From positions 1 through 63,106 of the IMG/VR virus record IMGVR_UViG_3300024520_000071: a stretch of 63,106 nucleotides of DNA, one strand, 5' to 3'. A program made the position numbers and the translations under genes. Of this stretch, positions 5,859 through 50,209 are shown in pieces. Within the stretch, counting starts at the first letter, position 1, and the number at the start of each line of letters is the position of its first letter. This DNA is from a virus. The notes under the pieces are model-generated. The model saw only the letters and a list, made by a program, of their open reading frames with translations. It was not told the DNA's origin and did no database searches.

Positions 5859-6087
5859 TCAGTGGCGCACTGGGTCTATACCTTCGCAGAGCCCCAGATC
5901 ACAGGAAGATTCGAGAGTACCTAACACTTACTAGCTCGTATACATATGACCTGGAAGGCGTCCCCCCCCACCCCCCTAATTGAGGATGGTCCCATATCTT
6001 CGGAAATCTATACCTACCCAGCCACACAAACTCCCCCAAAAATTACCACTTCTGGAACCGGGGCCCCTTTAAAAAATTACAATATTT

Positions 6088-21921: not shown

Positions 21922-22124
21922 GATATGTACGACAATTGAATGACGACTGGTGCGTGACGACAGGAGGTAATCGAGTTCTCCTGAACTGCGGCGATAGCGA
22001 AGCAGATGCCCAGGCCGAATGTGACCGCCTCAATGGCGTCGAGCCGAAACCCGTCCTCACGAAACCAGCGCCTGTAAAAAAGGCCCCTGCGAAAAAAAAA
22101 GCCCCGGCAAAGCGGAAGCGATGA
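21918..22124 (+). CDS. Small protein with Lys/Pro/Ala-rich tail (68 aa)
   Basis: The first 40 residues contain two Cys and a short strand-helix unit; the C-terminal 25 residues are a Lys-Ala-Pro repeat tail (APVKKAPAKKKAP) like nucleic-acid-binding histone-H1-type tails. It overlaps both neighbours by ATGA. Role unknown. Confidence 0.6.
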   Translation: MRYVRQLNDDWCVTTGGNRVLLNCGDSEADAQAECDRLNGVEPKPVLTKPAPVKKAPAKKKAPAKRKR

Positions 22125-22774
22125 ACGAAGGCCCTCTAATCTGGAAGCCGATGGTTGAAGCTGCGTGCGATGTGTACGACAGCCCCAATCGATTCAGTGC
22201 TGCCGGCGTCGAGTTCTCGACCGAGAAGGTAGGGGATCTGGATTGCTTCATCTTCGCCGGGACCAACGCGGGGAAGTCAGACAGCAAGATCCAGCGCCTT
22301 GCGGCCCGCCTGACCGATTGGGCGCGTAACTGTCGCCGCGGCCGGAAGTCCGTCACTGTCCGAGGGCGAAAGGTCAAGGTGCATTCCGGCTACTGGGAAG
22401 GCGCCGGGATCGCGATGACTCATTTAACAGCGTTTGCGGAGAGGCATGAAGAGATCGGAATCATCGGGCACAGTGCCGGTGCGGCCGAGGCTGCTTTGGC
22501 GGGAATCCAGATCGAGAGCAGGTTCCCCGGCAAGATCAAGCGACTCTGTTGCGCGGCCATGCCTCGGATCGGCAATCAGGCACTGTCCAACGCATTCGAA
22601 AGCCTCTTTCCGATGGCCGATCGTTACCGCCTGTATGGTCGCAAGCGTGATCCTATCTGCTTCCTGCCGGTATTCGGATACAAATTCCTCGCGCCAATCA
22701 CCTGGCTCCCAAGCAAATTGGACGGCAAGCTCGATCACGGCTGCTCGCAATACGCACAACTCGTCAACGAATAG
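22121..22774 (+). CDS. Class-3-lipase-like alpha/beta hydrolase (217 aa)
   Basis: The serine elbow is GHSAG (Ser118), preceded by strands IGIIG and by VHSGYW (residue 87-92), the VH-x-G motif of class 3 lipases. A later RKRDPI offers the Asp and LDHGCSQY near the C-terminus offers the His, completing the triad in order. It overlaps the previous gene by ATGA and lies directly before the tail spike. In a phage this may cleave acyl groups of the host surface, act in entry through the envelope, or assist lysis. No signal peptide is seen. The fold call is fairly firm, the role is inferred. Confidence 0.7.
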   Translation: MNEGPLIWKPMVEAACDVYDSPNRFSAAGVEFSTEKVGDLDCFIFAGTNAGKSDSKIQRLAARLTDWARNCRRGRKSVTVRGRKVKVHSGYWEGAGIAMTHLTAFAERHEEIGIIGHSAGAAEAALAGIQIESRFPGKIKRLCCAAMPRIGNQALSNAFESLFPMADRYRLYGRKRDPICFLPVFGYKFLAPITWLPSKLDGKLDHGCSQYAQLVNE

Positions 22775-22781
22775 GGATATC

Positions 22782-25187
22782 ATGTCCAACGTAACTGAAA
22801 ACGTCCTGATGGCGAACTACATCAGCACCACGCTGAACGGGGCGATCCTTGCCGGTGACCTCGCGATGACTTTGACCTCCGTGACCGGACTGCCGACGAT
22901 AACCACGGCAAACGGCAAGCATACCTATCTGGAATTACAGCAGGTGGCAACTCCGGCGAATCGCGAGATCGTCAAGGTTACGGACATCACCGGTTCCGTG
23001 CTGACCATCGTCCGGGCACAGGATGGCACGTCCGCGCTGGGTTTCGCCGATGGCGACCGGGTGCGTATGACGATTACGCGAATCTTGGAGGAGGACTTTC
23101 GTAATGAGCTCAAGGACGTGATCGATTACGTGGACTACGCTCTGCCGGGAATTGCCGACCAGACTGATGCGGCCGTAACCAACTCGATCGCTGAGATTAT
23201 GGCGAATTACGGCGCCACGACGTATCACACAATCATCCTGCGGCCCGGCACGTACACGATTCCAGACAACCTAACGTGCGACCAGTACACATCTTTCCAC
23301 ATTCTCGGGGGCGCCGAGTTTGACATCACGGTGAACAGTAAGACGCTGGCAATCAATGGGGGCGTGATGGCAGGCCACTATCCGATTAAGACGGCACCGT
23401 CAGGAACTGCTCGGAAGATGGAAATCTTCAATCAACCGGCTCTCGTTGAGTGGTATGGCGCCACGCCAAACATGGCAGCAGGAAAGGCAGTTCTCGAAAA
23501 CGCCGCATTGGGTGCCATTCATTTGGTCGTTTCGAGTGGTATCAATGTCGAAGATGATCTCACCTTGGACACCACCCTGGAAATCTTGGAAATCCGCAAC
23601 GGAGCCATCCTCACGGCAACGAGCACAAAGACACTGACGTTCTCTGGGCAGTTTATTCATGCGATTGAAGGCGATCAAGTCTTTGGATCGACAGGCATGG
23701 CTGGAACGATCAATAACGACTCGATAAGCGCACACTGGTTTGGAGCACAGGGCGACGGCGCAACGGACGATGAAACGTCAATCGAAGCCGCAATCACCTT
23801 CTCGCGCGCTGGCGGCACGATCACGTTTATCTCCGGGCTCACATACCTGACCGGCCAGATCAACGTCACCAAAGAAATCATCCTCGACGGCGGACACTTC
23901 AAGAGCACCGCGGCCAATGCCGGGGACTCGCTAATCGATCTGAATGGTTCGGGACCGTCCGACTCAACGATCAGGAATTGCTACATCGAAGTCCCAGGCG
24001 CGACTGTCGGCGGTGATGTCGCCGGTATCAAGATCGAGTCGTCTACCGGCGTGTTCATCTCCAACTGCACATTCAGCGGCGCCAAGGCCGCGGCAAGCAA
24101 CTCGGCCTGCGTTTATCTTGTATCGGCCCAGCGGGTCAATATCGAAAACTGCCGGTTCACCGGAGCGGACGAAAACACAGTGACTTTCGAGAACTCTTCG
24201 AATTGCACGCTCAACAACTGCATCCTGACATCGGCCGGCGCCGTAGGGTCCAGTGTTGAGGTTGCTGGCACGGGCGCCGCCTGCATGATCAGCGCGAACG
24301 TCATCAAGAGCCACCTCGGCAATGGCGTCACAGTCACGGCCTCTGATGTTGCGATCATCAATAATATGATCACCGGCAACGTACTAGACGGGATTGTGGC
24401 GGACGGATCGAACATTGCGATCACTGGCAATAACATCACTGGCGGCGGCGCGAAGACAGATAGTGGCGTGGCTTGCGGATCGAGCGCCAGCGGTATCGTG
24501 ATCTCCGGAAACTCGATCACTGACTTCTCGAACGCGGGTGGAGAAGCTGTGGACATCGATGCGGCAGCGACTGACATCGCCATCCAGGGCAATGTGCTGA
24601 CCGGTAACTTCGCCACCATTACCGATGCCGGCGGCACCAATGTCAAGATCGGCGCGAACGTCGGCGTCGACGACGTGTACATGGCCCAGTACGATACCGC
24701 CAACACGGTTGATGGCGTTGTTCTGGCAGACAACGTATGGACGATCATCCCGATAAACACCGAAATGGTTGGTGCGGATTTCGCGGCGGCACCGGCGGCA
24801 AGTCAGATCACAGTCCAGCCGGGCACTTATGAGTGCAGGTATCAGGTGATGGTGTCGAATGGAGGTGCCCAGACAGGCACATTCCAGGCAAAAATTCGCG
24901 ACACGACCGCCGATTTAGATATCAGCGTGGCAGACGGGTACAGTAGCGACTCTTACTCCCTGGTCGCGAATAGGACAGCGGGCGACGCATCCCAAACACC
25001 CATTGGTAAAACCTTTCGATTCAGTTTAACTGCCGCATCAGACCTTGAAATGCGAGTCTATGCAAACTTAGGCGTGGCAGGCGGAACAGGCAAAGCAGCT
25101 TTTGCCGCATCGGCTATCATTGAACTTCCGGGGGCTTCGGCACCAAAGGAAGTCTACGCCTGGCTCGAAATCCGGAGGGCTCAGTAA
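22782..25187 (+). CDS. Tail spike with right-handed beta helix (801 aa)
   Basis: The start at 22782 has AATAGGGATATC upstream. The N-terminal 110 residues are a likely virion-binding domain (TTLNGAILAGDLAMTLTSVTG, then EILEEDF-type helix). Residues about 330-650 repeat strands with Asn/Ser/Thr turns and ISNCTFSGA, ITGNNITGG, ISGNSITDF rungs, the pectate-lyase-like helix of depolymerase spikes. Residues 650-801 form a jelly-roll C-terminus (TVQPGTYECRYQVMV). It would bind and probably degrade the host surface polysaccharide. Catalytic residues cannot be chosen by eye. Confidence 0.8.
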   Translation: MSNVTENVLMANYISTTLNGAILAGDLAMTLTSVTGLPTITTANGKHTYLELQQVATPANREIVKVTDITGSVLTIVRAQDGTSALGFADGDRVRMTITRILEEDFRNELKDVIDYVDYALPGIADQTDAAVTNSIAEIMANYGATTYHTIILRPGTYTIPDNLTCDQYTSFHILGGAEFDITVNSKTLAINGGVMAGHYPIKTAPSGTARKMEIFNQPALVEWYGATPNMAAGKAVLENAALGAIHLVVSSGINVEDDLTLDTTLEILEIRNGAILTATSTKTLTFSGQFIHAIEGDQVFGSTGMAGTINNDSISAHWFGAQGDGATDDETSIEAAITFSRAGGTITFISGLTYLTGQINVTKEIILDGGHFKSTAANAGDSLIDLNGSGPSDSTIRNCYIEVPGATVGGDVAGIKIESSTGVFISNCTFSGAKAAASNSACVYLVSAQRVNIENCRFTGADENTVTFENSSNCTLNNCILTSAGAVGSSVEVAGTGAACMISANVIKSHLGNGVTVTASDVAIINNMITGNVLDGIVADGSNIAITGNNITGGGAKTDSGVACGSSASGIVISGNSITDFSNAGGEAVDIDAAATDIAIQGNVLTGNFATITDAGGTNVKIGANVGVDDVYMAQYDTANTVDGVVLADNVWTIIPINTEMVGADFAAAPAASQITVQPGTYECRYQVMVSNGGAQTGTFQAKIRDTTADLDISVADGYSSDSYSLVANRTAGDASQTPIGKTFRFSLTAASDLEMRVYANLGVAGGTGKAAFAASAIIELPGASAPKEVYAWLEIRRAQ

Positions 25188-25651
25188 TGCGGGTACTCTA
25201 CGTTGATGACGATGACGACAACCGCAAGCAATTCTTGATTGCGGCGAGGATCGCACAGGTCGATCTGGATATCGATCTGGCGGCGAGCGTCGATGAGGCC
25301 GAAACGAAGATCAACGGCGTTGGGCAGTACGACATGATCGTCAGCGACGTCATCATGCCGGCGCGCAAGGGATGGGAGTTGATTCCGAAAGCGAAGAAAC
25401 GCGGGTTTCCGCTCGTGTTTGTCACCGCCTACACAGATCAAGCAGAGAAAGATCAGCACCTGTCAGGACATCTGGTCCTGGGGAAAGGCATGAATGGCTC
25501 GCCGACACAAGTCGAACTCTGTCAGGCTATCAGCAATGGAAGATTGGCAGTCATGGCAGCGGTAGATGACCTAAGCCGTTCAGCGGACGAGACGCAGATC
25601 ATGGCAAGGCAGATGACGCGCGAGACAGGACAGATGGTGGCACATGGATGA
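25187..25651 (+). CDS. CheY-like response-regulator receiver-domain protein (154 aa)
   Basis: All five receiver (REC) landmarks are present: the acidic pocket VDDDDD (Asp8-Asp9), phosphoacceptor Asp54 in SDVIMP, Thr80 in VTAYT and Lys100 in LGKG, on alternating strands and helices. The C-terminal 30 residues are a helix with Ser/Gln/Met. No DNA-binding domain is attached, so it resembles a stand-alone CheY. It begins at the stop of the tail spike (TAATG), overlaps the following coiled-coil/TM gene by eight bases, and lies inside the virion operon. A phage receiver domain in this place is unusual. Confidence 0.85.
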   Translation: MRVLYVDDDDDNRKQFLIAARIAQVDLDIDLAASVDEAETKINGVGQYDMIVSDVIMPARKGWELIPKAKKRGFPLVFVTAYTDQAEKDQHLSGHLVLGKGMNGSPTQVELCQAISNGRLAVMAAVDDLSRSADETQIMARQMTRETGQMVAHG

Positions 25652-26030
25652 TAAAATTCTCGAAAACCTTGGCTTCATTAAAGGCACAATGGAAGGCGTA
25701 CAAGGTGAAATTGGGAAGGCTCGCGAAAATATCGCCACCTTATTCAACTCGGAAGCGGAGCATGACACAGAACTGCAAAAACAGTTACAGCGGATTGAGG
25801 CACTGGAAAAGGTCAATGACGATGCCTCTGAGTCTCAGGGAGATTGGAAGCGCGGGCTTGTCATGCCTTTGCTTGTTGCTGTTATCATGGCCGTGGCAAC
25901 GGCTATCGTCGGTGCCTATATCTGGGTTCAGGTGCAGCGCCAAATTGAAAACATGCGGATAGACCCGACAACACATGCCTTCATTGAAAGTCAACCAGAT
26001 GCGGGGGATGTCGCCGAGGACGGACGATAA
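25644..26030 (+). CDS. Coiled-coil protein with one transmembrane segment (128 aa)
   Basis: Residues 1-65 are a polar coiled coil (GEIGKARENIATLFNSEAEH; QKQLQRIEALEK), residues about 73-97 one hydrophobic helix (VMPLLVAVIMAVATAIVGAYIW), then a short polar tail. The layout fits a holin-like or spanin-like lysis protein or a phage membrane signalling partner. It overlaps the receiver gene at its start and the nozzle gene for 56 bases at its end. Topology is predicted, function inferred. Confidence 0.65.
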   Translation: MDDKILENLGFIKGTMEGVQGEIGKARENIATLFNSEAEHDTELQKQLQRIEALEKVNDDASESQGDWKRGLVMPLLVAVIMAVATAIVGAYIWVQVQRQIENMRIDPTTHAFIESQPDAGDVAEDGR

Positions 26031-27918
26031 ACTCCTTCCGGCGTCATACTCATCCAGCGCAAAAGATGTCGATCTGCTCTCCGGCAAAATCCGTGCTATC
26101 CTCAACACGGCAGTCGTTGAGGCGATCGGCAGCGGCCAGATGTCCATCTACTACTGGGACGGCCCGAACAAGTGGTTGTCCTGGACTACGGATGTCGATG
26201 TTGTGCGCACACCTATTGGCGGCGACATCTACAACCGGATCTACTTCACAGGTGACGGAACACCGAAAGTCCGTGGGATCGATGCTACTGTCGATTCGGA
26301 ATACGATCTGGGGCTCCCGGCGCCCTCGAACACCCCGACCATCGTCACGCAGCAAAAGAGCCTGACCAACTGGACGCGGACTTGGTACTACTGGTACGAA
26401 GAGCCCGGCGGCAACACTGTCGACGCTGGCACGCTGACCGAAGGCGTGGACGTGATCGAGGTCACCCCGGGTCAATCCTGGACGATCTCGAGCATTCCCG
26501 CGAAGGTCACGGCAACAGCTGATGCTGTGTTCGTGGCCTACTTTGACGGCACCAGCAGCGGTGGCACGCACCTCGGTCGCCTGTGGCCTGATGTTTCTCT
26601 CTACTCTGGGTCCACCGATTTCGTACTGAACGGTGGTATCGGAACTATGACCCAGGTCACGGCCAGCGGTGTCGCGACCTTGACGCTGTCACTCGCAGAT
26701 CCGGATCCTAGCAACTACTCTGTCGATCGAACCTACGCCCAGACCTACGTGTCAGCATGGGGCGAAGAAGGGCCTCCAAGTACGATATCGACCGTGCAGC
26801 GAGTGTCCCCGGCCCAGGATGCTGTGATTTCGAACCTGAACACGACACTGGCCGGGAACTACAATGCCGCCAGCAAGCGGATCTACCGATCGATCACGAG
26901 CTCGTCGGGAACAACCTTCTTCTTGGTAGCCGAGGTTTCTCTTGCAACAGCGACCTACACCGACAGCAAGCTCGACAGCGAGATCAACGGGGCCCTGAAT
27001 GAGCTCAAGTCGGATGGCAACGGCACAGTCGGCCGATCCTGGCAACCGCCGCCTGCCGGCCTCACCGGTCTCGTAGAGATGCCGGGCGGGATCCTGGCCG
27101 GGTTCGTCGGGCGCGAGGTCTACCTGTCGGAGCCGTACCAACCGCACGCATGGCCTACCGGCTATTCCAAGGGCGTCGACTACGATATCATCGGCCTCGG
27201 CGTCACCGGCAACACCCTGGTCATCATGACTGACGGGTTCCCGTACGCCTTGAACGCGATCGATCCGGCCGTGTCGCAGATGACGCGCGTCGAGATCAAC
27301 CAGCCGTGTGTGGCGAAGCGTGGGATTGTCGACGGCGGATCCTTCGTGATCTACCCGTCCCAGAACGGGCTCATCTTCGTTCAGGGCAGTTCTGCCTCGA
27401 TCGGATCCGAGCAGTTCTACACACGAAAGGAGTGGAGCGCCATCAACCCCGAGACCATGGTTGCGGCGATCCACAATCGAAATCTGTACCTGTGGACCGA
27501 CAATATCGGCCTGATTGTCGACATCGACGAACGCGAGATCGGGATTATCGAGACGACTGTCACCGCTACTGGGGTTCACTCAGACCTGGAAAGTGACCGG
27601 TTATACCTCATCTCCGGATCTGACATCGTGGAATGGGAAGGCGGGACGACCCAGATGACCGGCTACTGGCGATCGATGGAGATGACATTCGAACGTGAGT
27701 TCACCCCGGTGATCTATCGCGTGGTTTCCACTGTGTACCCGGTGAGTGTCGAGTTCTACGCGGAGGGTTTGCTCGTGCAGACACTCTCTTGTCCTGACGA
27801 TGAAGCGGCCAAGGTGCCAGTACTCCGGCCAGAGAAGCACTGGATGATCGCGACGTCCGTTGCCGGTGACGTGGATCAGATTATCGTTGCCGACTCACTA
27901 TTGGAGCTCGATCGATAA
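25975..27918 (+). CDS. Tail nozzle/hub protein (647 aa)
   Basis: Large beta-rich protein with SYSSSAKDVDLLSGKI, YFTGDGTPKV, a Tyr/Trp-rich centre (TRTWYYWYEEPGG) and many blade-like repeats to the C-terminus. This is the layout of the nozzle of short-tailed phages (T7 gp12/P22 gp10-like propeller). The start at 25975 overlaps the TM gene; later ATGs at 25999 and 26008 are alternatives, and the homologous-looking part begins around MRGMSPRTDDKLLPA. It is followed by a fibre-like gene. Confidence 0.65.
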   Translation: MPSLKVNQMRGMSPRTDDKLLPASYSSSAKDVDLLSGKIRAILNTAVVEAIGSGQMSIYYWDGPNKWLSWTTDVDVVRTPIGGDIYNRIYFTGDGTPKVRGIDATVDSEYDLGLPAPSNTPTIVTQQKSLTNWTRTWYYWYEEPGGNTVDAGTLTEGVDVIEVTPGQSWTISSIPAKVTATADAVFVAYFDGTSSGGTHLGRLWPDVSLYSGSTDFVLNGGIGTMTQVTASGVATLTLSLADPDPSNYSVDRTYAQTYVSAWGEEGPPSTISTVQRVSPAQDAVISNLNTTLAGNYNAASKRIYRSITSSSGTTFFLVAEVSLATATYTDSKLDSEINGALNELKSDGNGTVGRSWQPPPAGLTGLVEMPGGILAGFVGREVYLSEPYQPHAWPTGYSKGVDYDIIGLGVTGNTLVIMTDGFPYALNAIDPAVSQMTRVEINQPCVAKRGIVDGGSFVIYPSQNGLIFVQGSSASIGSEQFYTRKEWSAINPETMVAAIHNRNLYLWTDNIGLIVDIDEREIGIIETTVTATGVHSDLESDRLYLISGSDIVEWEGGTTQMTGYWRSMEMTFEREFTPVIYRVVSTVYPVSVEFYAEGLLVQTLSCPDDEAAKVPVLRPEKHWMIATSVAGDVDQIIVADSLLELDR

Positions 27919-32304: not shown

Positions 32305-35300
32305 ATGCCCGCACCTCGTCCAAAGGTAGTCCTGAATGCTTACGGTCAGTCGACCCGCGGCATTCCTGGCGGTGTAGCCGGTACGACACAGGGCTACCAG
32401 CCGCGCGTGTCGATACCGAATTACCAAGCTCCCGATCGTCCGGGTGCTTTTGGCGAAGGCGTTGGTGTCGGCATGCAGGGCCTCAAGGAGATGGGCGGTG
32501 CCGCAATTGCTGTTGGCGGCAAGCAATTGGGTAGTCCTGGAATGATGCGATACGGCATCGGCATAATGGATCGCGCCAGCGCCGCACAGCAAGACGTCCT
32601 TACCCGGGCCCAGACCTACGAGGACATCGACGGCTTTGGAACTTTCGTCGAGTGGATGCAGTTCAACATGGGTCGCGCGGCCCCGTCAGTCGCGGAAGTG
32701 GCCGTGAGCTCCATGATTGGCGCGGCAATGGGCGGCGGCGTTGGTGCAATTCCTGGTGCTTTTGGATCCGGCGCCGCGCGTAAAGCGTTGTTGAAGATGG
32801 CCAAAGGAGAAATCCTCGATCGAGCCGAGATGCGTTTGGCGCAGCAGGCAATCAATGCAGCTGGGCGTGCCCAGATTAAAAAGGCCATGGTCAGTGGTGG
32901 CGACGACCTGACCGCGATTACCGCAGCAGTGGGCACAGGTCCAACCGAAGCGATGCAGCTTCTCAAGGCGACTGCGATCGGCCAAGGGGTTCGCGGCGGT
33001 GCTCACGGCGGCGGGATGGCAGCTGGCTACGAGCTCGGCGTCGGAGAGATCGGGTCGAGCCTGTACCAAGCGACCGGCGAGATCCATGCGGGCCCGGCGC
33101 TCGTCGGCGGCATCCCTCACGCCTATCTCGAATACCTTCCCTATGCCACATTGGCTAAGTCCATCGGCAAAACTGTGCGTCGGCAAGCTCAAAAAGATAT
33201 CAACACAATCGTAGCTGAACGAGCCGCTGCCGGCGCTACTCCTTGGAATCCGAACACCGCGATGGCGAAAGCCGCCGCTGCCGGGGTCGCGAAAAGCACG
33301 CTGATCGAGCCGATCACAGAAGAGTTGCAGACTGAGGTCGAGCTCCTGGTCCGTGCTGGCGTCGATCCTACCTTTGATTTTGGCGGCGACGAAGCATTCA
33401 GCCAGCGCATGCACGCATTTATCGACTCGATACCGGGCGGACTGTTCTTTGGAGCTCCTGGGGGTGTCGCTGGCGGCGTACGCGGCCGTAAGGAAGCACA
33501 GGGCATGAATGTCGAGCTCCAAAAGTGGATCGACAAGTACGGCACGGCCCTCGACGACGATCTGGACAATCCAGCTGGCGGCGGTACTGGCGGCACGCCC
33601 GCGGGCACCAAAAATATCCTGGACCCCACGGATTCTGCTGGACTCCCAGTTACTCCGAACCCGGCACCGCCGAACCCGGCACCGCCGACGCCCCCCGCCG
33701 CTCCGGCACCGCAAGGACCGGCCGCGGCACCGCAAGAACCCGCGCCAATGCCGCAAGGCCCCATCGTGCCGCCGCCGCCCGATCCGCCCGCAGCAATGGA
33801 TCCATTCTATGCGATGTTCGAGGCTCATGAGGATGCTTATGTTACTATTAACGGGAAAGACAGTGCGATTCTCATCGCGGCCGAACTTGAGGAAATACGG
33901 TTCAATAGTCCAGAAGAGGTCAAGGCATACGCCATAGATTTATCACGCCAGCAGTTATTCCAGAATATCCAGGCCAAGATAGATGCTGGTATGAACTTGT
34001 CTGCATCTGACCCCAGCGTTGATGACTTTAAGGCGATGCAAGACGCCTTGGAGGGCGCAGGGTTGCCGCGATCGGCCAAGATCGATGAAGAGATTGAATC
34101 TCTCAATGCGCATATTGCCGCAGAGGCAGTTCCAGGGTATGTTGAACCAACCACTCCCGGGGCGCCCGCGGGGGTTGCGTCTGAGCCATCGGTCGGCACG
34201 GCTGGCGATCCAGTGTCAACTTCACAATCTCCACAGGCGACTTCCGGGACTCTTTCGGAAGTCGAAAAACCCAAAACACCAACACAAACGGAGGTGCAAG
34301 ATGCATCCGAAGAACCGGCAGATCAAAACCTCGATGACAATCGGGGACGGGATCGCACACCAAAAGGGGGGAATCGCGTCGAGTCCCCCAAAGACAAGCT
34401 GCGAGGCCGAACGGGCCGGCGGCGAAAAAGGCAAGTCGGAAAAACTGCGGTCGGCAGCGGCCTGCAAGTAGACGGCAAATCGGTAGACCCGGCGGCGAAG
34501 GGCGACCCAGTTCAACCTTCGCTGTCGGAGATGCCTCCCGACCTTCCCGCCGCGAAAGCTACGGTCCCGGACCAGTTCACTACCGAACTTGGATCTACCT
34601 ACGAGATCCATGCAAACAATACCACAACGCGGAATAAGGCTAAACGTAAAGGGCACCCGAATGACTCAGGACTAAAGGATAGGTCCGATCAAACCTACTA
34701 CGTCAAAAGCGATGATGCTTGGCGCCTCGCCCTGCCCGAGGGCAATTTTAGGATCGTTGATCATGGCGACGACACGATAAGTCTCGCCACCCCTGACAAG
34801 AATACAGCGAAATGGGGCATCGCTAAGTCAAATAAAAATATTCCTGTATCGAAGGAACCCTCGGAAGGGACGCATCCTGTCGAGGTATGGTTCAAGACTA
34901 AGACCGAGGGCAGCACGGCCTATCGAAAAGCGCACATCGGGAACAAGATCACCAAAGTGCAGAGCTCGAAGATGACGGAGCAGGAACTGTTTGCGGAGCA
35001 GGAGCAGGAGCAGGAGCAGGAGGCAAAAGAAGTTGCCCCAGAGGCCAAAGAGGATCCACCCGCGAAGAAGCCGGCCGAGAAGAAGAAGCAACCCCTGGCT
35101 ACAAAATCTCCGGTCACTCCGAAAAAGAAACCTGCAAAGAAGGATAATTCGAAACCTACATGGATCAAACCTAGAGAAGGCAAGCCGGCCAGCGATGCGG
35201 CCAAGCAAAGGGCTCTTAGTCTGGGAATCAGAGCCAAAAAACAGCCCGGCGAGAAAGGTCGTTGGGAATGGCTCAACTTAAAAATTTCGAGATTCACAGA

Positions 35301-38300
35301 AGTATTCGTTAAATTTCTCAATGCTGTTGTTGGTATTGACTTTGTGCGTGTAAGGAGTGACATCGACATATCTCATGCACAACTCGAAAGAGATCGTAAT
35401 TCCCTTTATTTAGAGGGCAAGGATTTTGATACGGCTCTAAGAACCGGAGAAGCCACGAAGTCACAGGCCGATGATTTATTGTATTCGATCGGCGAATTTT
35501 CTATTCATGTCAACGAGAGGATGAAACGGATAGACGTCCAGCATCACATGAGCACTTCCTCGGTAGATAAAGAAAAACTTTCAAAGGCCCATAAAGAACT
35601 AAGCGAACTTGCCAGTGCGCTGGATGCTTACTCTGAGGATCTTATCGATTATGCGGAAGTGAATCTAACAGACAAGCCGCGGAAGCAGCCAAAGGCGCCT
35701 GTCGAGAAAAAGGTTCCATTCAAGCCAAAGGAAAATTACGCAGGCCCGCCCCGAGTGTCCTTTCTGGTGACGTGGATGACCGAGAATAAAATCCAGCTGA
35801 AACCCAGAGAAACTACGTCATGGAATAAGGTAAAAACCAAGGGTGTCGCTCTTGATAATAGTACGTTATTTGGGGAGGATCGCGAGGACGAGATTCAGCG
35901 GGCATTAGACTTGATTAAGGAAGTTGATGCATTCGTGGAAAGCCTGAACAAGAAAAAATCACATCCTGATTTTTCGGTGAAACTCTCGACCTTTTCAGCC
36001 GAATTAGTCGATTACTATTCGGACTCTCCGAAAAAGGCTAAAGTGGCACCCGAGCCGACAATCCGGCCACTGGTTGAGCCCAGCAAGAAAATGGCCACAC
36101 ATATTGCCAACTTCCAGGCAGATGTAGAAGCCGACATGCGTGCGTCCCTGGAAAAAGGTCGCACAGTTAAGGTGCCGCCCGCGCTCTCTGTGAAATACGA
36201 TCCCTTCCGACAAGTCGAAGCGAGAGTTGATCCGGATACTCAAGGAATCGAGCTCTTTACAACTTCGAAAAAACATCCGGACGATAAGAGTCCAGGATTG
36301 GTGCCCGGGAAGGCTGGCGAGAAACGTGGCCCCGACTTTGATGACATTGATGGTTTGATCCGTGGTCTGACGGAAGCCGATCAGCGAAGCCCCGCCGAGA
36401 TTGCTGCTGATTCTGCCGAAATTATAGAAGCCTCAAAAGCAGCAAGGAAGCATACTATTTATCGGAAGCTGAAACAAGCTTTTACTGCCGTGCCAAAGTA
36501 CGAAAAGAAAAAAGACAGTAGCGAACGAATTGGGATTGCACGGGCTAATGATGCTGCACGTCATTTTGATGACAAATACAAGAAGGATGATCGCCGGAAA
36601 AACTATCGTATTATCGGCGAAAAAGGATCCGATCAGGTTTTTCTTATAAACAAATTCGATGACGTCATCCAGGAATTCGATTCAATCGATGCCTTCATCA
36701 AAAAATGGGAAGAGAAGGACAAGGAAGAAAAGGCGAAAGATTCTGGCACCCGATTCTCGATGCATCGTGATCCTGATCTTTCCGATGAAAGAGCACCATC
36801 CCGAGCGGAAAATCCGGATTATTCTCCATATAGCGGGAATAAGCAGTCGGGCATAGAAAGGCTGAATAGACTGTCGAAGGACGATAGGGAAGCCCTGTAT
36901 TCCAGAATCAAAACACATCTCACTGATTTCTTCGAATCATGGGATGGGGTTTATGATATCGTCCGATATCTTAGAGAAAGGAGCGTAGATCCAACTGTCG
37001 ATACAGGACAAGCCTACTACAAGAAAGATTACGTCAGAACTGATGGGACTATTGGTATCGGCACAGATAATCTACCCTCGGCTGGGAGAGCGCCCTATGG
37101 CTGGGGCAAGGTCCAAGCCTTTGAAAAGTACTTCGAGGACCATTATCACGATGACCGTCCGAACGATGCTTTAGATACGGATGCACAAATAGAAAAGGCC
37201 ATGGACGTCATGGTTGAATATGTAGCGGTGCGCATTCTTCATAGAGAGGGCATCCTTAGTTCTAAAGAATCTGGAAATCAGCTAGCCATGGCCACTTATA
37301 GTCTATTCGAAAAGGCCCTAAAAGATAATGTCACAGGCATCCGCCCTGATCTGAGAATGCTCATCTTTTTCAACGGCGATCTCGATTATCAAGGCGAGAA
37401 ATTTAAGTCCTATTCTGCCGAGCAAATGGCAAAGAAGCTGGCAGAGCGTCGGAGTAATGCAGAGGCTCTGTATAAGGATCTTCGCACGGAATATGAGTCC
37501 ATGATGAAGGTTCTTGGGGAAAGCGCCGATCCTGATTCATATATAGGCACTCGCTTCTCCCAGCACCGTGACGCGAAACTTGCCGAGGCCGACGAGCTCG
37601 ACAGCCTTGACGAAACCATCGACGACGAGCTCTATTCGCTGCCGGTGGAGATGATGAAGCGAATCTTCGAGTTGAAGGACGCGATCACTCAGGCGTACGC
37701 TGATGGCACGCACGAGACCAAAGAGGTAGAGGACCAGGATGCCGAGCTCGACCATCTCTATAACGAGGCCGAGGCGATACTCGACGCGGCGCACGAGGAC
37801 ATGGGCGCGATCGAGACCGACAACGATCGGTACAAGGCTCCGGAGATTCCCGAGGGTGCCAGTAGCGTGGCATCGCTTGAAGCAGCACTTTCCAAAGTCC
37901 TGGCGGCGAAGGGGTGGACGGAAACGACCAGACCCCATATCGTCCAGTCCGTTGTCGAGCTTCCGTTTGATGCTCCCGCCAACATCCCGGGCGTCTACCA
38001 CAATGGCGAGGTCTGGCTGATCGCCGACAACATCGCGACCGGCCGGGAGCAGCACGCATTTCTCGAGGCCCTGTTCCATGAGCAGGTTGGGCACGTCGGG
38101 GTCCGCCGGATCTTGGGCGACCGCCTCAATGACACGCTCGATCGCGTCTGGGAATCGTATTCTGACAGCGAAGCCATGCTGAAAAACATCGACGTCTACT
38201 TCCCGGATGGCGACTTCGACAGCAATAACCCCGAGCATACCCGTCTGGCGGCAGAAGAGTTCATTGCCCTCCGCGCGCAGCAAGTCCTGCTCGACGGAAC

Positions 38301-41300
38301 AACGATGCCCGGATTCATTAAGCAGATCGTGGCGGCTGTGAGGCAGTTTCTCGCAGATCATGGGTTCACGGTCAAGATGAGCGATCAGGACGTCCTGGCC
38401 CTTATTGTCGCAGCTGACAAAAGTTTGCAGGGACGGCGGAAGTTTTCGGATCAGGTCCAGCGCGGATTGCGGTTTGCCATGGACAACGAGCCGCTGTGGT
38501 TCAGCCAGATGCGCCGGCAGATCGAGGACCATCTCCCGGACAGTGCCACGAACGCGAATAATGCGAAGCGGATCAAGCGATGGATCGGCTCCGGGCTCAT
38601 TACCTCAGAAGAGGTGGAATGGAGCGGGATCCTTGACGAGCTTCAAAGGCGCGGCCAGGACAAGATGTCGAAGGAAGAGGTTCTGCAATACCTTGCCGAC
38701 AATGAGGTCGTTGTTACAGAGAATGTGCTGGGATCCGTGCCCCCAAAGGAATGGCGTGAGGCTGGTGCAGCGTATGCCGAAGCAAATCTCAGAAGAGACA
38801 ATGCCGAACGTGTTCTCCGGGCTCGCAAGATCGAACACGTCAAAGCCGACATCGACTACCTCGACGAGTTGAACGATTTACCGAATCGAAAAAACAGCAT
38901 TGCCAACTATAAAAAGGCATTAGACAAAGCCGAAAAGCTGATGGAAGAGGCCAAGCTCGAAGCAGAAAAAACCACCAAGGAAGCAAATAGGCTATCGAAG
39001 GAATTCTCAAAGGTGCAGCAGGCGAATCCGGCGACGGGATGGGAAGCGCGTCATGACCGCTGGACGCAGCGCGGAGGCGTGGGGTATCAAGAACTGCTTT
39101 TGTTCTACACGCCGAAAGGAAAGCCTGGGGAAGTAGAGAAAGCGCCAAAGGAATACAAAGACGCTCTTTTCTATTATGATGCCCTTGTGGATGATGTTCG
39201 CGATCTGACTTCCTGGGATCAGCACGATCTCGATCTACTCAACAAATGGGATCACGACGAAACCGTGCTGTCGGAAATGGAGAAGGATCACGTTCGGGAC
39301 ATGCTTGAACAGTCACAGATGGACATGGTGACACGAAGCCGTATGGTTTTTCTGGGACAGGGAATATATAGAGCAGCAAAGGGCAATCGATTCTTCATCG
39401 GCACCAGTCATAGAAAATACCGTAACATCGAAGACCGTTTTTTTGTTTACCAAGAAGAGCAGCAGGCACTCGAAGGTGATCATGACGCCGCGCTATTCCA
39501 GACGAACTCGTTCGAAGAGGCACTGAGCGTGGCGACGGGTAGTACGCAAGGAAACGTGTTTTCGTCCGATCACTTCCCGGACACTAACAACTTCTTTGCG
39601 CACGTTCGCTTCAAGACGCGATTCGATGCAGACGGCAATAAGGTTTTGTTCATCGAAGAATACCAGTCGGACTGGAATACGAGAGCGCGCAAAATTCGCC
39701 AGGACCGTATCGCGCAACTGATTAACCAAAACTACACGAAGGCCCAAGCAGAAAGTCTTATTCCTGAGACTTTTGGTTATGGTGACACGCCGGGCATGAT
39801 CTGGACAAGGGTATCCGGAGATGAAATGACCTCAGAGTCTACTCGGGGGGATGGTCGCAAATGGCGATGGACTATCGTCCGAAAGGCCGATAACCATTTT
39901 GATCTAATCAATCCCGCCAATATTCCAGAAAAGTTTTCATCTCTGGCCGATGCCAAACGTCATGCCGAAGCTATCAATTCGGAAATGGTAGAAAGCGTTC
40001 CTGATCTTCCGTTCAAGCAGTCTGCCTTAAAGATGGGCATGCGCCGGATGATTCGCCATGCCGCTGAAAACGGATATGACAAGATCGCCTGGACTCCGGC
40101 AGAGATGCAACTCCGTCTTTATGATACCGGCTTTAATGGCAGAGTCGAATGGACGGTCAACCGAAAAAACATAGATATTGTACTAAGTAATCCCAAAACT
40201 GACCGATCTACGGATTTGATCATCAGCCATAAGGGGGAAGTGGTATCTGGCGATCAACTGAACTTGAACATCAATCGCCAAAAGGATATCTCTGACTTCC
40301 TGCCGCCTGGAATCGTTGACGAAATTCTCGGTTCTCCAAGCGGTCATCGGCAAATGATCGATGATGTTTCCATTGGCGACCAGAAGGCCCCGTTGATCTA
40401 TGACAAGAATATGGTCCGGGATACCGCGAGGTACGTGAAGCAATGGGGCGCGACTGTCGAGAAATCGCCGATCATATTCAACAAAACCAACGCCAGGGTC
40501 CGGATGCTGAACGGAACCCCAACGGTCCTCGACAACCAACCTCCTACCGAGGACAATACCGATTCTGACGATCGCGTAGAATTTCCTACCATTGCAGCGG
40601 CCGAAGCCGAAGTCGAACGCCGTAACCGCCAGCATGCCATGGAGCGTAGTGAATCTTTAGGGCAGGATGTCCACTCTGTCACGATCACGCCGGAGATGCG
40701 GCAAGCTGCCCGACGCGCGGCGCCGATGTTCAGTCGGCCGGCAAAGAATCCGACGACGGACGAGCAGACCCGATTCTCCATGCACAACGCCATGGACGAG
40801 GCAATCGCGCCCGAGTTGGAAGATTCCGGGCACAAGCAAGGCAAGACCGACAAGCTCCGCGGCGCGCGACCGTGGTTCCTGGGCGGTTTCTCTCTTGATC
40901 AAATCCTGGAAGTCTGGGACGATCTCTTCGATAAAGGGCTTGCGCATCATGGCGTGACGTACGGCAAGTTCGATGCCTCGAAGGTCGAGCGGCAGACGAG
41001 GGGCGTGGACGTCGGTCAGCGGCTCTGGGACTATCATGACAGCCACACCGATACCGAGACGGGGCAATATGGTTCTTCTATGACCCGTCTGTTCTTGGAC
41101 GGCACGTTCTTCAAGCTCACGCCACATGGCCCGTTCGAAGAAGGTTTGAACATGGAAGAGACGAAGAGCATGTTGCGTCAGGCGAACCTTGAATATGATG
41201 CCATGGAGAAGATGTCTTCCTCTAAGGAGAAAGAGGAAGAACTGGCACTCGCCAAGAAAGCGATACAGGTCATGGAACGCGACATCCGGGAAGAGGACAC

Positions 41301-43884
41301 CCGCAAAGAGATGCATGATGAGTTGGTGCTGATCTATGCGGCCCTCGACGGCAAGTATGATCCAAAGACAAAGAAGGGATCTGGGCCATTAGGTTTGTAC
41401 CACGACACCCTGAATCATCTGGAAGAAAACTTTGAGGCAATGGAGAAGGCTCTGCATGATCGTGTCGATCGAATTCTCGATGCCATGGGAGTTGATCGCG
41501 AAAGTGACATGGAGAAAAGCCGGAAAGAATTGCATGACGAGATCCGCCTGAGATTCGACGAGGCCCGCGGCATAGGTATCTACTTTCCGTTATCTCGATT
41601 CGGTGATTACATCCTCATCGGAGAGCGGTTAGATGAATTCGGCGACCTGGATCGACGGGTCTCTGCTTACGACAGTGCGACCCGTGCGAATGCAGAGGAA
41701 AAGAAATGGATGGAAGAGGAAGGGTATGCCGTCGTCCAGAAGCACAAGAAGGAATACGATCCTGTAAATGACGGCGTCAGCACGGGATTCGTCCAGAATC
41801 TTTTCGACGCGCTTGATAAGCACGGGATTGAGGATGAGTCATTGCTCGACGAAATCAATCAGATGGCGATTCGGTCGTTGCCGGATCTGAGTACGCGCAA
41901 GCACTTCGGGCATCGCAAATTCATCTCCGGGTACACCCAGGACTTTGTCAGGGCCTTTTCTCACAGTTCTTTCCATGCTGCACATCACATCGCGCGCATT
42001 GAGTATGCGGACATTATCCGTGGCGAAATAAAAGAGATGCAGAAGGATACAGACGAGGTGGAAGACTATACCAAGAACACTGGCCAGACCGGCGAGGCCC
42101 GCACGAAGTCTGCGAAGATGCAGCAGGTCGTGAATGAGCTCCTGCTACGGCAGAAAGCGGCAATGAATCCACAAGGGCACCCGGCTGTCAACTTTCTGGG
42201 GTCAATGGGGTTCGCGTGGATGATCGGCCCGGGGATTGCCGGCACACTGATCAACGCCAGTCAGGTTGGCATGTTCACGATGCCGTGGCTCGGGAGCAAG
42301 TACGGATTCTGGTCCGCAAATAAGGAGCTTCTGGACGCATACAAGTTGTTGCATGGCGAGCGCAAGACTCATTTGACCGATGACGGCGAAATTGAGCCGA
42401 ATAAGCGCCAACTGGACAACTGGTTCGATCTCGAGCAGAGCGAGAAGCTGGTCAAGCATCAGAAAGAGATGCAGAAGAAGCATAAGGAATACAATTTCTC
42501 CGAGTGTTTACAGGAGCTCAAGAATGACGGCACCATCTCCGTCACCCAGACTCATGATCTGAGCGGGCTGGCCAATCTGGATTTCTCTGTCCAGTTCAAT
42601 AGCGCCGCCGCCCGGAAGTTGTTCCAGGCTATGCGTATGGTCGCGTACCCGTTTCATACCGCCGAGGTCATCAATAGGCAGGTCACAGCCAAGGCAGCAT
42701 ACGATCTGGCGATCAAGGGCGTCAAAGGCGTCAAGGGCCGCAAGGGGCATCCGGCGATGAGTCACAAGAAGGCCGTGGCGTTTGCCAGGACCGCGATTAA
42801 CAGCACTCACTTCAACTATCGCTCGACCAACCGCGCCCGGTACATGCAGGGCAACGTCGGCCGGATCGTGTTCATGTTCCGCCAGTACGCGCTGAACGTC
42901 ATGTTCCTGCAAGGTCGCGCGATCCGGAACATCTTCGTCGGGTTCAGGAAGAACAAGAAAGGTGTCGTCGACAAGAATTCTGAGGAATATCAGGCGGCTG
43001 TGGAAGCTACGAAGATGCTCAGTGCCATCTACGGGCTCCATTTCGCCGTTGCCGGTGCGGTGGGGCTCCCGATCTGGGGCGCGTCCGAAATGATGATCAA
43101 CGCCATCATGAACGGTTTCGGCGACGACGACGATCCGTACGACTTCAAGACGAACTTCCGCAACTTCATGGCCGATACCCTCGGGACCACGGCCGGCGAG
43201 TTCATTTCCCATGGCGCGATCCGGGGCCTTGGCGCCGACGTGTCCGCCAGGATGTCGATCGATGTGATGGATATGATGCTGCCGCGTACGCCCGACACCC
43301 AGAGCCAGGGTCGTCGCAAGTTCCAGGAGATGTTTACAGCTGTTGGTGGGCCCGTCGTCAGCATCGCCAGCAACCTTTATGCGGGCATGAGTCAGTGGAG
43401 TCAGGGAGACATCTATCGTGGCACCGAAACAATGATGCCGCGGTTTATACGTGACTTTATGCGTGGGGGACGTTACTTTGTGGAAGGCGTGACCACGCAT
43501 GAAGGCGAAGAGCTCATGGACATCAGTGCATGGGAAGCTGGGTTGCAGGCACTGGGGTTCACGCCCGGCGACGTCGCTGAGATGTATCAGGGGCGTCGAT
43601 CGATCAAGAAGAAGGAAACACTTTTGAACCGGAGGCGCCGGGAGCTCTTGAACAAGTACGACAAGGCCCGTCGAGCCGGAGCACGGAAGCGTCTCAGGAG
43701 TTTGAGGTCTGAGATCCGCAAGTTCAATGCGATCAATCCCGAGTTCGAGATCCGCAAGGAACACCTGCAAGCCTCGAAGAAATCCAAACAACGTGCCCGC
43801 CGACAGACGAAGAGGGGCACTTACCTACAAACAGAACGTAAAGACCTGAGAAGGGTCGGACGTTTCGCAAACATAGGAAACTGA
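32305..43884 (+). CDS. Giant polyvalent internal virion protein with zincin motif (3,859 aa)
   Basis: The largest gene, starting directly after the upstream TAA. Parts seen in order: Ala/Gly-rich N-terminus (to about 420), Pro/Ala linker (452-495), long charged and EQEQ/Lys-Pro linkers (about 890-1000), helical domains, a zincin-type HEQVGH (1925-1930), a conserved module with VLFIEEYQSDW (2447-2457) and MGMRRMIRHAAENGYDKIAW (2577-2596), and a C-terminal half with YFPLSRFGDY and an INSTHFNYRSTNRARYMQG/MFRQYALNVMF block (3493-3535) as in LPD38-type proteins. RF-S/A-x motifs at 1483, 1750, 2056, 2809 and 2823 mark domain junctions. Such polyvalent proteins are injected with phage DNA and protect it or act early. 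No RNA polymerase motifs were seen. Confidence 0.8.
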   Translation: MPAPRPKVVLNAYGQSTRGIPGGVAGTTQGYQPRVSIPNYQAPDRPGAFGEGVGVGMQGLKEMGGAAIAVGGKQLGSPGMMRYGIGIMDRASAAQQDVLTRAQTYEDIDGFGTFVEWMQFNMGRAAPSVAEVAVSSMIGAAMGGGVGAIPGAFGSGAARKALLKMAKGEILDRAEMRLAQQAINAAGRAQIKKAMVSGGDDLTAITAAVGTGPTEAMQLLKATAIGQGVRGGAHGGGMAAGYELGVGEIGSSLYQATGEIHAGPALVGGIPHAYLEYLPYATLAKSIGKTVRRQAQKDINTIVAERAAAGATPWNPNTAMAKAAAAGVAKSTLIEPITEELQTEVELLVRAGVDPTFDFGGDEAFSQRMHAFIDSIPGGLFFGAPGGVAGGVRGRKEAQGMNVELQKWIDKYGTALDDDLDNPAGGGTGGTPAGTKNILDPTDSAGLPVTPNPAPPNPAPPTPPAAPAPQGPAAAPQEPAPMPQGPIVPPPPDPPAAMDPFYAMFEAHEDAYVTINGKDSAILIAAELEEIRFNSPEEVKAYAIDLSRQQLFQNIQAKIDAGMNLSASDPSVDDFKAMQDALEGAGLPRSAKIDEEIESLNAHIAAEAVPGYVEPTTPGAPAGVASEPSVGTAGDPVSTSQSPQATSGTLSEVEKPKTPTQTEVQDASEEPADQNLDDNRGRDRTPKGGNRVESPKDKLRGRTGRRRKRQVGKTAVGSGLQVDGKSVDPAAKGDPVQPSLSEMPPDLPAAKATVPDQFTTELGSTYEIHANNTTTRNKAKRKGHPNDSGLKDRSDQTYYVKSDDAWRLALPEGNFRIVDHGDDTISLATPDKNTAKWGIAKSNKNIPVSKEPSEGTHPVEVWFKTKTEGSTAYRKAHIGNKITKVQSSKMTEQELFAEQEQEQEQEAKEVAPEAKEDPPAKKPAEKKKQPLATKSPVTPKKKPAKKDNSKPTWIKPREGKPASDAAKQRALSLGIRAKKQPGEKGRWEWLNLKISRFTEVFVKFLNAVVGIDFVRVRSDIDISHAQLERDRNSLYLEGKDFDTALRTGEATKSQADDLLYSIGEFSIHVNERMKRIDVQHHMSTSSVDKEKLSKAHKELSELASALDAYSEDLIDYAEVNLTDKPRKQPKAPVEKKVPFKPKENYAGPPRVSFLVTWMTENKIQLKPRETTSWNKVKTKGVALDNSTLFGEDREDEIQRALDLIKEVDAFVESLNKKKSHPDFSVKLSTFSAELVDYYSDSPKKAKVAPEPTIRPLVEPSKKMATHIANFQADVEADMRASLEKGRTVKVPPALSVKYDPFRQVEARVDPDTQGIELFTTSKKHPDDKSPGLVPGKAGEKRGPDFDDIDGLIRGLTEADQRSPAEIAADSAEIIEASKAARKHTIYRKLKQAFTAVPKYEKKKDSSERIGIARANDAARHFDDKYKKDDRRKNYRIIGEKGSDQVFLINKFDDVIQEFDSIDAFIKKWEEKDKEEKAKDSGTRFSMHRDPDLSDERAPSRAENPDYSPYSGNKQSGIERLNRLSKDDREALYSRIKTHLTDFFESWDGVYDIVRYLRERSVDPTVDTGQAYYKKDYVRTDGTIGIGTDNLPSAGRAPYGWGKVQAFEKYFEDHYHDDRPNDALDTDAQIEKAMDVMVEYVAVRILHREGILSSKESGNQLAMATYSLFEKALKDNVTGIRPDLRMLIFFNGDLDYQGEKFKSYSAEQMAKKLAERRSNAEALYKDLRTEYESMMKVLGESADPDSYIGTRFSQHRDAKLAEADELDSLDETIDDELYSLPVEMMKRIFELKDAITQAYADGTHETKEVEDQDAELDHLYNEAEAILDAAHEDMGAIETDNDRYKAPEIPEGASSVASLEAALSKVLAAKGWTETTRPHIVQSVVELPFDAPANIPGVYHNGEVWLIADNIATGREQHAFLEALFHEQVGHVGVRRILGDRLNDTLDRVWESYSDSEAMLKNIDVYFPDGDFDSNNPEHTRLAAEEFIALRAQQVLLDGTTMPGFIKQIVAAVRQFLADHGFTVKMSDQDVLALIVAADKSLQGRRKFSDQVQRGLRFAMDNEPLWFSQMRRQIEDHLPDSATNANNAKRIKRWIGSGLITSEEVEWSGILDELQRRGQDKMSKEEVLQYLADNEVVVTENVLGSVPPKEWREAGAAYAEANLRRDNAERVLRARKIEHVKADIDYLDELNDLPNRKNSIANYKKALDKAEKLMEEAKLEAEKTTKEANRLSKEFSKVQQANPATGWEARHDRWTQRGGVGYQELLLFYTPKGKPGEVEKAPKEYKDALFYYDALVDDVRDLTSWDQHDLDLLNKWDHDETVLSEMEKDHVRDMLEQSQMDMVTRSRMVFLGQGIYRAAKGNRFFIGTSHRKYRNIEDRFFVYQEEQQALEGDHDAALFQTNSFEEALSVATGSTQGNVFSSDHFPDTNNFFAHVRFKTRFDADGNKVLFIEEYQSDWNTRARKIRQDRIAQLINQNYTKAQAESLIPETFGYGDTPGMIWTRVSGDEMTSESTRGDGRKWRWTIVRKADNHFDLINPANIPEKFSSLADAKRHAEAINSEMVESVPDLPFKQSALKMGMRRMIRHAAENGYDKIAWTPAEMQLRLYDTGFNGRVEWTVNRKNIDIVLSNPKTDRSTDLIISHKGEVVSGDQLNLNINRQKDISDFLPPGIVDEILGSPSGHRQMIDDVSIGDQKAPLIYDKNMVRDTARYVKQWGATVEKSPIIFNKTNARVRMLNGTPTVLDNQPPTEDNTDSDDRVEFPTIAAAEAEVERRNRQHAMERSESLGQDVHSVTITPEMRQAARRAAPMFSRPAKNPTTDEQTRFSMHNAMDEAIAPELEDSGHKQGKTDKLRGARPWFLGGFSLDQILEVWDDLFDKGLAHHGVTYGKFDASKVERQTRGVDVGQRLWDYHDSHTDTETGQYGSSMTRLFLDGTFFKLTPHGPFEEGLNMEETKSMLRQANLEYDAMEKMSSSKEKEEELALAKKAIQVMERDIREEDTRKEMHDELVLIYAALDGKYDPKTKKGSGPLGLYHDTLNHLEENFEAMEKALHDRVDRILDAMGVDRESDMEKSRKELHDEIRLRFDEARGIGIYFPLSRFGDYILIGERLDEFGDLDRRVSAYDSATRANAEEKKWMEEEGYAVVQKHKKEYDPVNDGVSTGFVQNLFDALDKHGIEDESLLDEINQMAIRSLPDLSTRKHFGHRKFISGYTQDFVRAFSHSSFHAAHHIARIEYADIIRGEIKEMQKDTDEVEDYTKNTGQTGEARTKSAKMQQVVNELLLRQKAAMNPQGHPAVNFLGSMGFAWMIGPGIAGTLINASQVGMFTMPWLGSKYGFWSANKELLDAYKLLHGERKTHLTDDGEIEPNKRQLDNWFDLEQSEKLVKHQKEMQKKHKEYNFSECLQELKNDGTISVTQTHDLSGLANLDFSVQFNSAAARKLFQAMRMVAYPFHTAEVINRQVTAKAAYDLAIKGVKGVKGRKGHPAMSHKKAVAFARTAINSTHFNYRSTNRARYMQGNVGRIVFMFRQYALNVMFLQGRAIRNIFVGFRKNKKGVVDKNSEEYQAAVEATKMLSAIYGLHFAVAGAVGLPIWGASEMMINAIMNGFGDDDDPYDFKTNFRNFMADTLGTTAGEFISHGAIRGLGADVSARMSIDVMDMMLPRTPDTQSQGRRKFQEMFTAVGGPVVSIASNLYAGMSQWSQGDIYRGTETMMPRFIRDFMRGGRYFVEGVTTHEGEELMDISAWEAGLQALGFTPGDVAEMYQGRRSIKKKETLLNRRRRELLNKYDKARRAGARKRLRSLRSEIRKFNAINPEFEIRKEHLQASKKSKQRARRQTKRGTYLQTERKDLRRVGRFANIGN

Positions 43885-44187: not shown

Positions 44188-44601
44188 ATGCCTACGACAA
44201 TAGGGAGTGCAGGTGGTGGTGGTGGCGGTGGTGGGGCAGCGACAGGCGGCGCAGGCTCGCTCGCGGTCCTAACCGGCGCTGACCTCACAAGCGGCACGGA
44301 CGAGAACATCGGCGATGTCGTTGGCACAGGCAAGGTGTGGATCTGCACCGGTTTCATGGCGCGGATCGTGTCACGGACGGGCGGTACGGCACTCTCGAGT
44401 CTCGGCTTGAAGGGTGACGCTGTGACGATCATGGATAGTTACGCTGACCTCGACCTCGACACAGTAGGCGAAGTCGTGCAGTTCAAGAAGTCGATAGTGA
44501 TCGCGGCGGGCGTACAAGTGAAGCTACTCAAAGGTGTTGCCTCTGATGCGTCACCACACACGGCAAACATTACACTCATGGGGTATGAAGAAGATGCGTA
44601 A
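44188..44601 (+). CDS. Small structural protein with poly-Gly stretch (137 aa)
   Basis: The start at 44188 has AAGGAGACGATT upstream. Residues 7-20 include eight Gly in a row, then a beta-rich domain (IVSRTGGTALSSLGLKG, VVQFKKSIVIAAGVQVKLL). The poly-Gly part may be a flexible hinge in a fibre complex. It overlaps the next gene by 17 bases. Confidence 0.55.
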   Translation: MPTTIGSAGGGGGGGGAATGGAGSLAVLTGADLTSGTDENIGDVVGTGKVWICTGFMARIVSRTGGTALSSLGLKGDAVTIMDSYADLDLDTVGEVVQFKKSIVIAAGVQVKLLKGVASDASPHTANITLMGYEEDA

Positions 44602-49635: not shown

Positions 49636-50209
49636 CGGTGCTTGCCGAGTCGGCATCGGTGGGGGAGATAATCCTGGCATCGTCATGTTGGTTAAAGGCG
49701 GCATCAACCTGCTGGAAGAAGATGTTGATTTGATTGCCCTCGTCGTCGTTGCCGTCGCCGGGGCGTTGTACCTTCATGAAGCGTTCTATGGCTGTCACCT
49801 TATCGTGCAACTTGACGTCTGTCAACGTGCCTTCCTTGTCACGGACGAGCTCCTTGATCACCGCGGTCCACTCATCTGGCCACTCCGATTGCGGTTTCAG
49901 CTGCCCGTCCTTGTAGAAGAGCGTGATGTCGGCCAGTCCGATCTTCATCAGATCGACCATCATCGCCGGTTCGGCCACGGGCAGGTATCCTTCGAATTCG
50001 GCCCGGTAGTGCTCCACGGCCCGGTCAATCGCCTCCTTGACTGCCGGGTTGTTCGAATACGCCTTCCTGCCTTGGAACGTCTGAGCGTATCCGGCTTCGG
50101 TCGCTCCTTCGCTTAGTGCCGTCCCCAGGGTCGCGCCAGCTGCCAGCTGCTTGATTGCGTGCTGGACGAGGGACAGCTGCTTCTTGGTCATGCGGGTGTC
50201 GTCTGTCAT
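49445..50209 (-). CDS. terS: Terminase small subunit (254 aa)
   Basis: The start is the second of two ATGs, with AGAGG seven bases upstream. The N-terminus has KKQLSLVQHAIKQLAAGATLG and a helix-turn-helix-like EAGYAQTFQGRKAYSNNP, then a coiled helical part (FEGYLPVAEPAMMVDLMKIG) and a Pro/Ser/Thr-rich tail. The last 63 residues are overprinted by the start of terL (about 190 bases, more if terL starts further upstream). It directs the large subunit to phage DNA. Confidence 0.75.
   Translation of the reverse strand: MTDDTRMTKKQLSLVQHAIKQLAAGATLGTALSEGATEAGYAQTFQGRKAYSNNPAVKEAIDRAVEHYRAEFEGYLPVAEPAMMVDLMKIGLADITLFYKDGQLKPQSEWPDEWTAVIKELVRDKEGTLTDVKLHDKVTAIERFMKVQRPGDGNDDEGNQINIFFQQVDAAFNQHDDARIISPTDADSASTDVVNVSTEAGGPTVGQNVEDEQPLLDPAEGRGSDAFYAELSSGVFGDTPPSTTSSPQEPPARD

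Follow-up and report, generated by a model that had tools for sequence, protein, structure and literature searches.

A stand-alone response-regulator receiver between the tail spike and nozzle genes of a Bcep22-like podophage, with a tentative tie to lysis timing

A 63,106-base linear virus record (the window) was found to carry, between the tail spike and nozzle genes of its late operon, an intact gene, phage-like in codon use, for a 154-aa receiver (REC) protein (25187-25651, plus strand). As judged from the sequence and a structural model, the product is a stand-alone receiver with all catalytic residues, for which phosphorylation is predicted. Among related phages the spike-nozzle interval is a variable slot, and its content there suggests, tentatively, that the receiver takes part in the timing of lysis.

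The receiver gene is an uninterrupted frame with an ATG start and a TGA stop. As the sequence-only reading of this DNA had stated, it begins at the stop of the spike gene: the spike TAA (25185-25187) and the receiver ATG (25187-25189) have one A in common (TAATG). A Shine-Dalgarno sequence, GGAGGG (25174-25179, plus strand), was read within the 3' end of the spike gene, 7 nt upstream of the ATG, and no promoter-like site was found between spike and receiver. At its 3' end the gene overlaps the next one by 8 nt. Its GC, GC3 and codon use are close to those of the neighbouring late genes, so its composition does not mark it as an obvious recent arrival.

The domain assignment was obtained by Pfam, PDB sequence search, AlphaFold and Foldseek. 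Response_reg (PF00072) matched residues 3-91 with an E value of 7.3e-9 and 36.2 bits, against a curated cut-off of 30.2, and the named natural proteins matched in the PDB sequence search were all response regulators or kinases (best 3a0r, 1.1e-5). The AlphaFold model (pLDDT 76.5, pTM 0.68) shows a (beta/alpha)5 fold with strands at residues 2-6, 28-32, 50-54, 76-80 and 96-99, and helices at 10-22, 35-44, 62-72, 83-88, 108-116 and 119-153, the last being a long C-terminal helix of lower confidence. The input was an 11-sequence alignment; the relatives' sequences stopped before alpha4, and strand 5 of the model is for this reason unbiased. When run on the receiver's single sequence, AlphaFold was uninformative (pLDDT 37). 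Foldseek returned 298 PDB matches to the model at E <= 0.001, those listed being nearly all receivers or receiver-containing proteins, and among viral proteins the model matched gp30 of phage V22. The earlier identification of a stand-alone CheY-like receiver is thus borne out.

The catalytic set consists of the acid pair D7/D8, the phospho-Asp site D54, T80 and K100; the sequence-only reading had Asp54, Thr80 and Lys100 right but placed the acid pair at Asp8/Asp9. In the model K100 lies one residue past strand 5, while the Pfam match ends earlier, and it falls in the invariant Lys column when the protein is aligned with bacterial receivers. Some multiple alignments that include the tails of viral receivers misplace this residue; a shortened alignment was used instead, and the K100 assignment rests on the bacterial-receiver alignment together with the AlphaFold model.

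A C-terminal DNA-binding domain of the PhoB or NarL type was sought in the protein, and only the helical tail was found after the receiver domain. The aromatic switch residue of CheY is Tyr106, three residues before the Lys. The corresponding position here is V97, and CheY orthology was rejected because the aromatic residue is absent; no chemotaxis genes were seen near the receiver. Searches of phages, plasmids, IMG/VR and GTDB genomes gave no close relative. The plasmid matches were generic receivers; hybrid-kinase receivers and response regulators are among the nearest bacterial matches. The large proteins behind phrog_5982 and phrog_20458 carry a receiver of their own close to the C-terminus.

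The gene directly 5' of the receiver (22782-25187, plus strand) encodes a tail spike with a right-handed beta-helix, itself preceded by a Lipase_3-family gene (22121-22774, plus strand), the product of which, a putative esterase, is possibly a late or envelope enzyme or a lysis enzyme. The overlapping 3' neighbour (25644-26030, plus strand) encodes a small membrane protein of 128 aa with a predicted N-terminal coiled coil and one transmembrane (TM) helix at about residues 70-95, a layout that resembles hemolysin/XhlA-type proteins. Its match to phrog_937 is weak (E 8e-4), and this family is unspecific, with matches in 10 of 14 control genomes, archaea included; PF10779 gave no match to it. The nozzle-like virion protein (phrog_511; 25975-27918, plus strand) follows directly. 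The window also encodes a portal, a major head protein, a GNAT protein and a 3859-aa protein, and its late-gene order (fibres, nozzle, GNAT, virion proteins, giant protein) is that of Burkholderia phages BcepIL02 and CSP3 and Pseudomonas phage Skulduggery. By its nozzle homologue and this order, the phage is a Bcep22-like podophage. Neither an integrase nor a HATPase_c kinase was found in the window, and no endolysin was recognised there.

Some features elsewhere in the window were observed in passing. The giant late protein (32305-43884) has a PLxRF-like motif near its C-terminus (FPLSRFGDY) and, as in Bcep22 relatives, is probably a polyvalent-type protein that is ejected. It is followed by a 763-aa protein (44534-46825) with repeats and a signal-peptide-like stretch past an internal Met, for which no family match was obtained. 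On the minus strand, far from the portal, two genes (47998-49707 and 49448-50212) encode a terminase small subunit-like protein (PF03592 just under the cut-off) and an adjoining 570-aa protein, which is possibly the large subunit.

Relatives were collected through the nozzle gene, which served as the anchor, and comprised 80 related IMG/VR records, many of them fragmentary. Response_reg was found in none of these 80 records, so the receiver is not conserved among them. In the closest relative (L002) the spike runs to position 10000 and the nozzle begins at the next base, 10001, with neither the receiver nor the TM/coil gene between them; for this reason the claim that tight packing speaks against an accidental insertion is weak. 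Genes 5' of the nozzle in relatives encode enzymes as well as small TM proteins and Rz-type proteins that combine TM and coil. The nozzle-abutting gene is T4-lysozyme-like in L007 and its relatives (1.4e-13); lysozyme-like and holin-like proteins occupy the interval in L036, and an Rz-type protein those of L017 and L013. In L045 the interval encodes papain-like, TM/coil and small TM proteins together with an M23 peptidase (1.1e-9) and an Rz-type protein. In total, lysis genes (lysozyme or M23 endolysin, holin, Rz spanin, papain-like protein) lie just before the nozzle in at least 20 loci of about eight lineages, a lower bound from a search seeded with these interval genes. The late operons of relatives also hold varied accessory genes, such as PAPS reductase and GNAT.

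These neighbourhoods indicate that the position described earlier as a virion operon is largely a lysis or accessory position in this phage group. That the gene is tightly embedded between spike and nozzle, inside the late operon, stands; the virion-operon setting as a pointer to packaging is not supported. With its receiver and overlapping coiled-coil/one-TM gene, the window's interval may be equated with the lysis slot by position in relatives, no endolysin having been recognised in the window itself. As a separate observation, very different lysis cassettes fill the same fibre-nozzle interval in L007, L036, L045, L013, L017 and L065, which makes it a hotspot of lysis-gene exchange in the Bcep22-like relatives.

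Receivers near phage tail genes are already on record, as "class II AMG" or "PhoB". CheY-like genes were described in the host-recognition modules of the Alteromonas phages V22 (a myovirus) and A5 (a schitovirus), and are said to be shared with P24 (PMC7289586, PMC10579305). The sequence-only reading, which called receiver proteins rare in phages, knew of none with an established role between spike and nozzle; receivers do occur in V22, A5, PB15, XX1924, R8W and the IMG/VR record L108, either directly behind the tail fibre or within the block of virion and tail genes, among lysis or small membrane genes, and the finding in the window therefore has precedent. V22 and its relatives have the order papain-like, TM/coil, REC, Rz spanin, which environmental relatives retain, and A5 has TM/coil, REC, Rz and an annotated endolysin. 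In both, a TM/coil protein lies just 5' of the receiver and an Rz-like spanin directly 3' (V22 ORF31, 8.5e-6; A5 gp12, 2.9e-8). In PB15 a hemolysin-family coil-TM protein (1.8e-16) is followed by REC, endolysin (1.6e-31) and holin (2.6e-40), an order similar in XX1924; the TM/coil protein of the window does not align with the PB15 coil-TM protein. The T7-like R8W has fibre, holin, TM/coil, a 153-aa REC, a TM protein and terminase, and L108 has a LamG/fibre-type gene, a hydrophobic ORF, REC and a papain-like phrog_1128 protein, a kind that V22 and L045 also have. Active-site residues are retained in these phage receivers, with Ser in place of Thr in several.

Similarity of the receivers, irrespective of position, led to PB15 and L108, while V22, A5 and R8W were taken from papers, which introduces a selection bias into the neighbourhood pattern. 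Two other stand-alone receivers (L111 and L113) had no lysis or tail genes among the neighbours read, so the association of receivers with lysis genes is not universal. The window receiver is 11-23% identical in alignment to the Alteromonas group and nearer to L108 and bacterial receivers, which suggests, from sequence comparison, an independent capture. Listeria, Staphylococcus and fecal "phage" records matching V22 gp30 were set aside, by judgement, as likely bacterial contamination. Two further details concern these loci. The annotated start of the PB15 receiver (L124) at 6013 omits strand 1, and an in-frame ATG at 5992 yields a full receiver. The small permuted papain-like protein of phrog_1128, whose PHROGs label (enoyl-CoA hydratase-like) is doubtful, recurs by lysis genes and receivers in L114, L117, L119, L108 and L045.

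Most accounts of lysis timing invoke an intrinsic holin clock, which antiholins adjust in some cases. We propose, at somewhat less than an even chance of being right, that the receiver is a phospho-switch, expressed late and coupled to the lysis module, and that it sets the time of lysis according to phospho-signals of the host. The gene would have been captured by this phage lineage and placed between tail spike and nozzle, in the slot for lysis genes, and would be made late, presumably on one transcript with the spike and the small coiled-coil/one-TM protein. Host histidine kinases or acetyl phosphate would phosphorylate D54, and phosphorylation would shift the alpha4-beta5-alpha5 face, possibly together with the long C-terminal helix. 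The shifted face would alter binding to a putative partner, either the neighbouring membrane protein, through its coiled coil, or another lysis protein, and lysis timing would come to depend on host energy or envelope state.

The computed receiver fold and catalytic residues, the overlaps with the spike and TM genes in the absence of a promoter-like site between spike and receiver, the lysis genes before the nozzle in relatives and the receivers in like settings elsewhere all favour lysis timing, as does the lack of a HATPase_c kinase in the window. Against it stand the weak link of the TM/coil protein to hemolysin/XhlA proteins, the absence of a recognised endolysin from the window, and the lack of a near homologue of the receiver with which conservation of the receiver-TM pair could be checked. 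No paper tying phage tail-region receivers to lysis was found in the open-access literature. More doubtful is a wider proposition, that a hitherto unrecognised class of lysis regulator is common to several phage families: a stand-alone receiver of the lysis cassette that would read host phospho-signals and gate the holin or spanin step by way of a neighbouring membrane protein with a coiled coil. The window would then be a divergent case in a new phage lineage.

The main rivals to lysis timing are a late kinase decoy and passive cargo. As a decoy or phosphate sink, the receiver would drain or compete for the phosphoryl groups of host kinases and silence an envelope-stress, motility or defence response, its lysis neighbourhood reflecting shared late timing only. 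We regard this as rather unlikely, though a receiver with a complete phospho-site, no output domain and no phage kinase fits it, as do the hybrid-kinase receivers and response regulators among its nearest bacterial matches. It also has a precedent in PIT4 of phage LSL4, a protein devoid of conserved domains that acts on host two-component kinases (PMC10714779). A decoy, however, would not need repeated siting by membrane lysis genes in several phage types, and late expression would leave little time for transcriptional effects. The more general suggestion of the sequence-only reading, a receiver made late to alter host behaviour, may hold.

Decidedly less probable is a passive or recently captured cargo gene (moron) of little selected function, in a slot that tolerates accessory genes. 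The absence of the receiver from all 80 related records, the direct run of spike into nozzle in L002 and the varied accessory genes of the relatives' late operons are as expected of cargo. The intact frame and the full catalytic set are not, nor are the overlapping starts, the strong ribosome-binding site and the codon use, which is phage-like; comparable genes also turn up at comparable sites in other phages. A virion-packaged effector, injected to act at the start of infection, is very improbable. The giant protein does sit where relatives have virion-associated DarB-like proteins, and the regulator CsrA, detected by one peptide in virions of the Bcep22-like phage JC1 (PMC9144972), hints at virion-associated regulators in this group; but the site is the relatives' lysis/accessory slot and not the ejection-protein block, the receiver is not fused to a virion protein, and no packaging signal is known. 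Hardly to be credited is a spike or fibre assembly factor with a receiver fold and no signalling, for although the receiver directly follows the spike and downstream fibre chaperones are common (V22 gp27), the catalytic site is retained, and in V22 and A5 a chaperone gene distinct from the receiver lies between it and the fibre gene.

If true, lysis timing by a receiver sited among lysis genes would link this step to host two-component signalling. The recurrence of such receivers spans podo-, myo- and siphophages, with isolates at hand (V22, A5, R8W and PB15). Three of the phage receivers were labelled auxiliary metabolic genes by the authors who described them, with no function test reported, a loose label that the lysis-regulator reading would supersede if confirmed. 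What is new here is another phage lineage with a receiver, and the positional equivalence of its site to a lysis cassette.

Bacterial receivers, such as that at the end of a large response-regulator protein of Caballeronia (L107, 36%) and the TrrA/CheY-type single domains, have the same fold and catalytic residues as the window protein, but belong to host kinase/regulator pathways and not to a phage context. Receivers that bind membrane machines exist in bacteria, PorX and CheY-like flagellar regulators being examples. The cREC domain of jumbo phages is likewise a receiver-derived phage domain; it is divergent in sequence and linked to NAD/ADP-ribose enzymes, never to kinases (PMC7824862), whereas the window receiver is a canonical Response_reg match with a spike and a TM protein as neighbours, and no NAD/ADPr genes were seen nearby. 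Within the same phage group, the Bcep22-like morons CsrA, GNAT and PAPS reductase are also accessory genes in or near the late operon, but all three are different proteins, and GNAT and PAPS reductase are located after the nozzle (PMC9144972).

The Alteromonas phages PB15, XX1924 and R8W share with the window a receiver that lacks a DNA-binding domain and follows the tail fibre. Theirs sit among coil-TM, holin or endolysin genes; in contrast to the window, lysis genes are recognised there, and the coil-TM gene precedes the receiver. V22 gp30 (149 aa) and A5 gp11 (147 aa) differ from the window protein in hosts, virion types and 3' neighbour, an Rz-like spanin, and at 11-17% identity in alignment they are not close relatives of it. 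They are nonetheless stand-alone receivers of the same size class, with a C-terminal tail, 3' of the fibre gene (PMC7289586, PMC10579305), and, as in the window, their 3' end overlaps the start of a small TM/coil gene.
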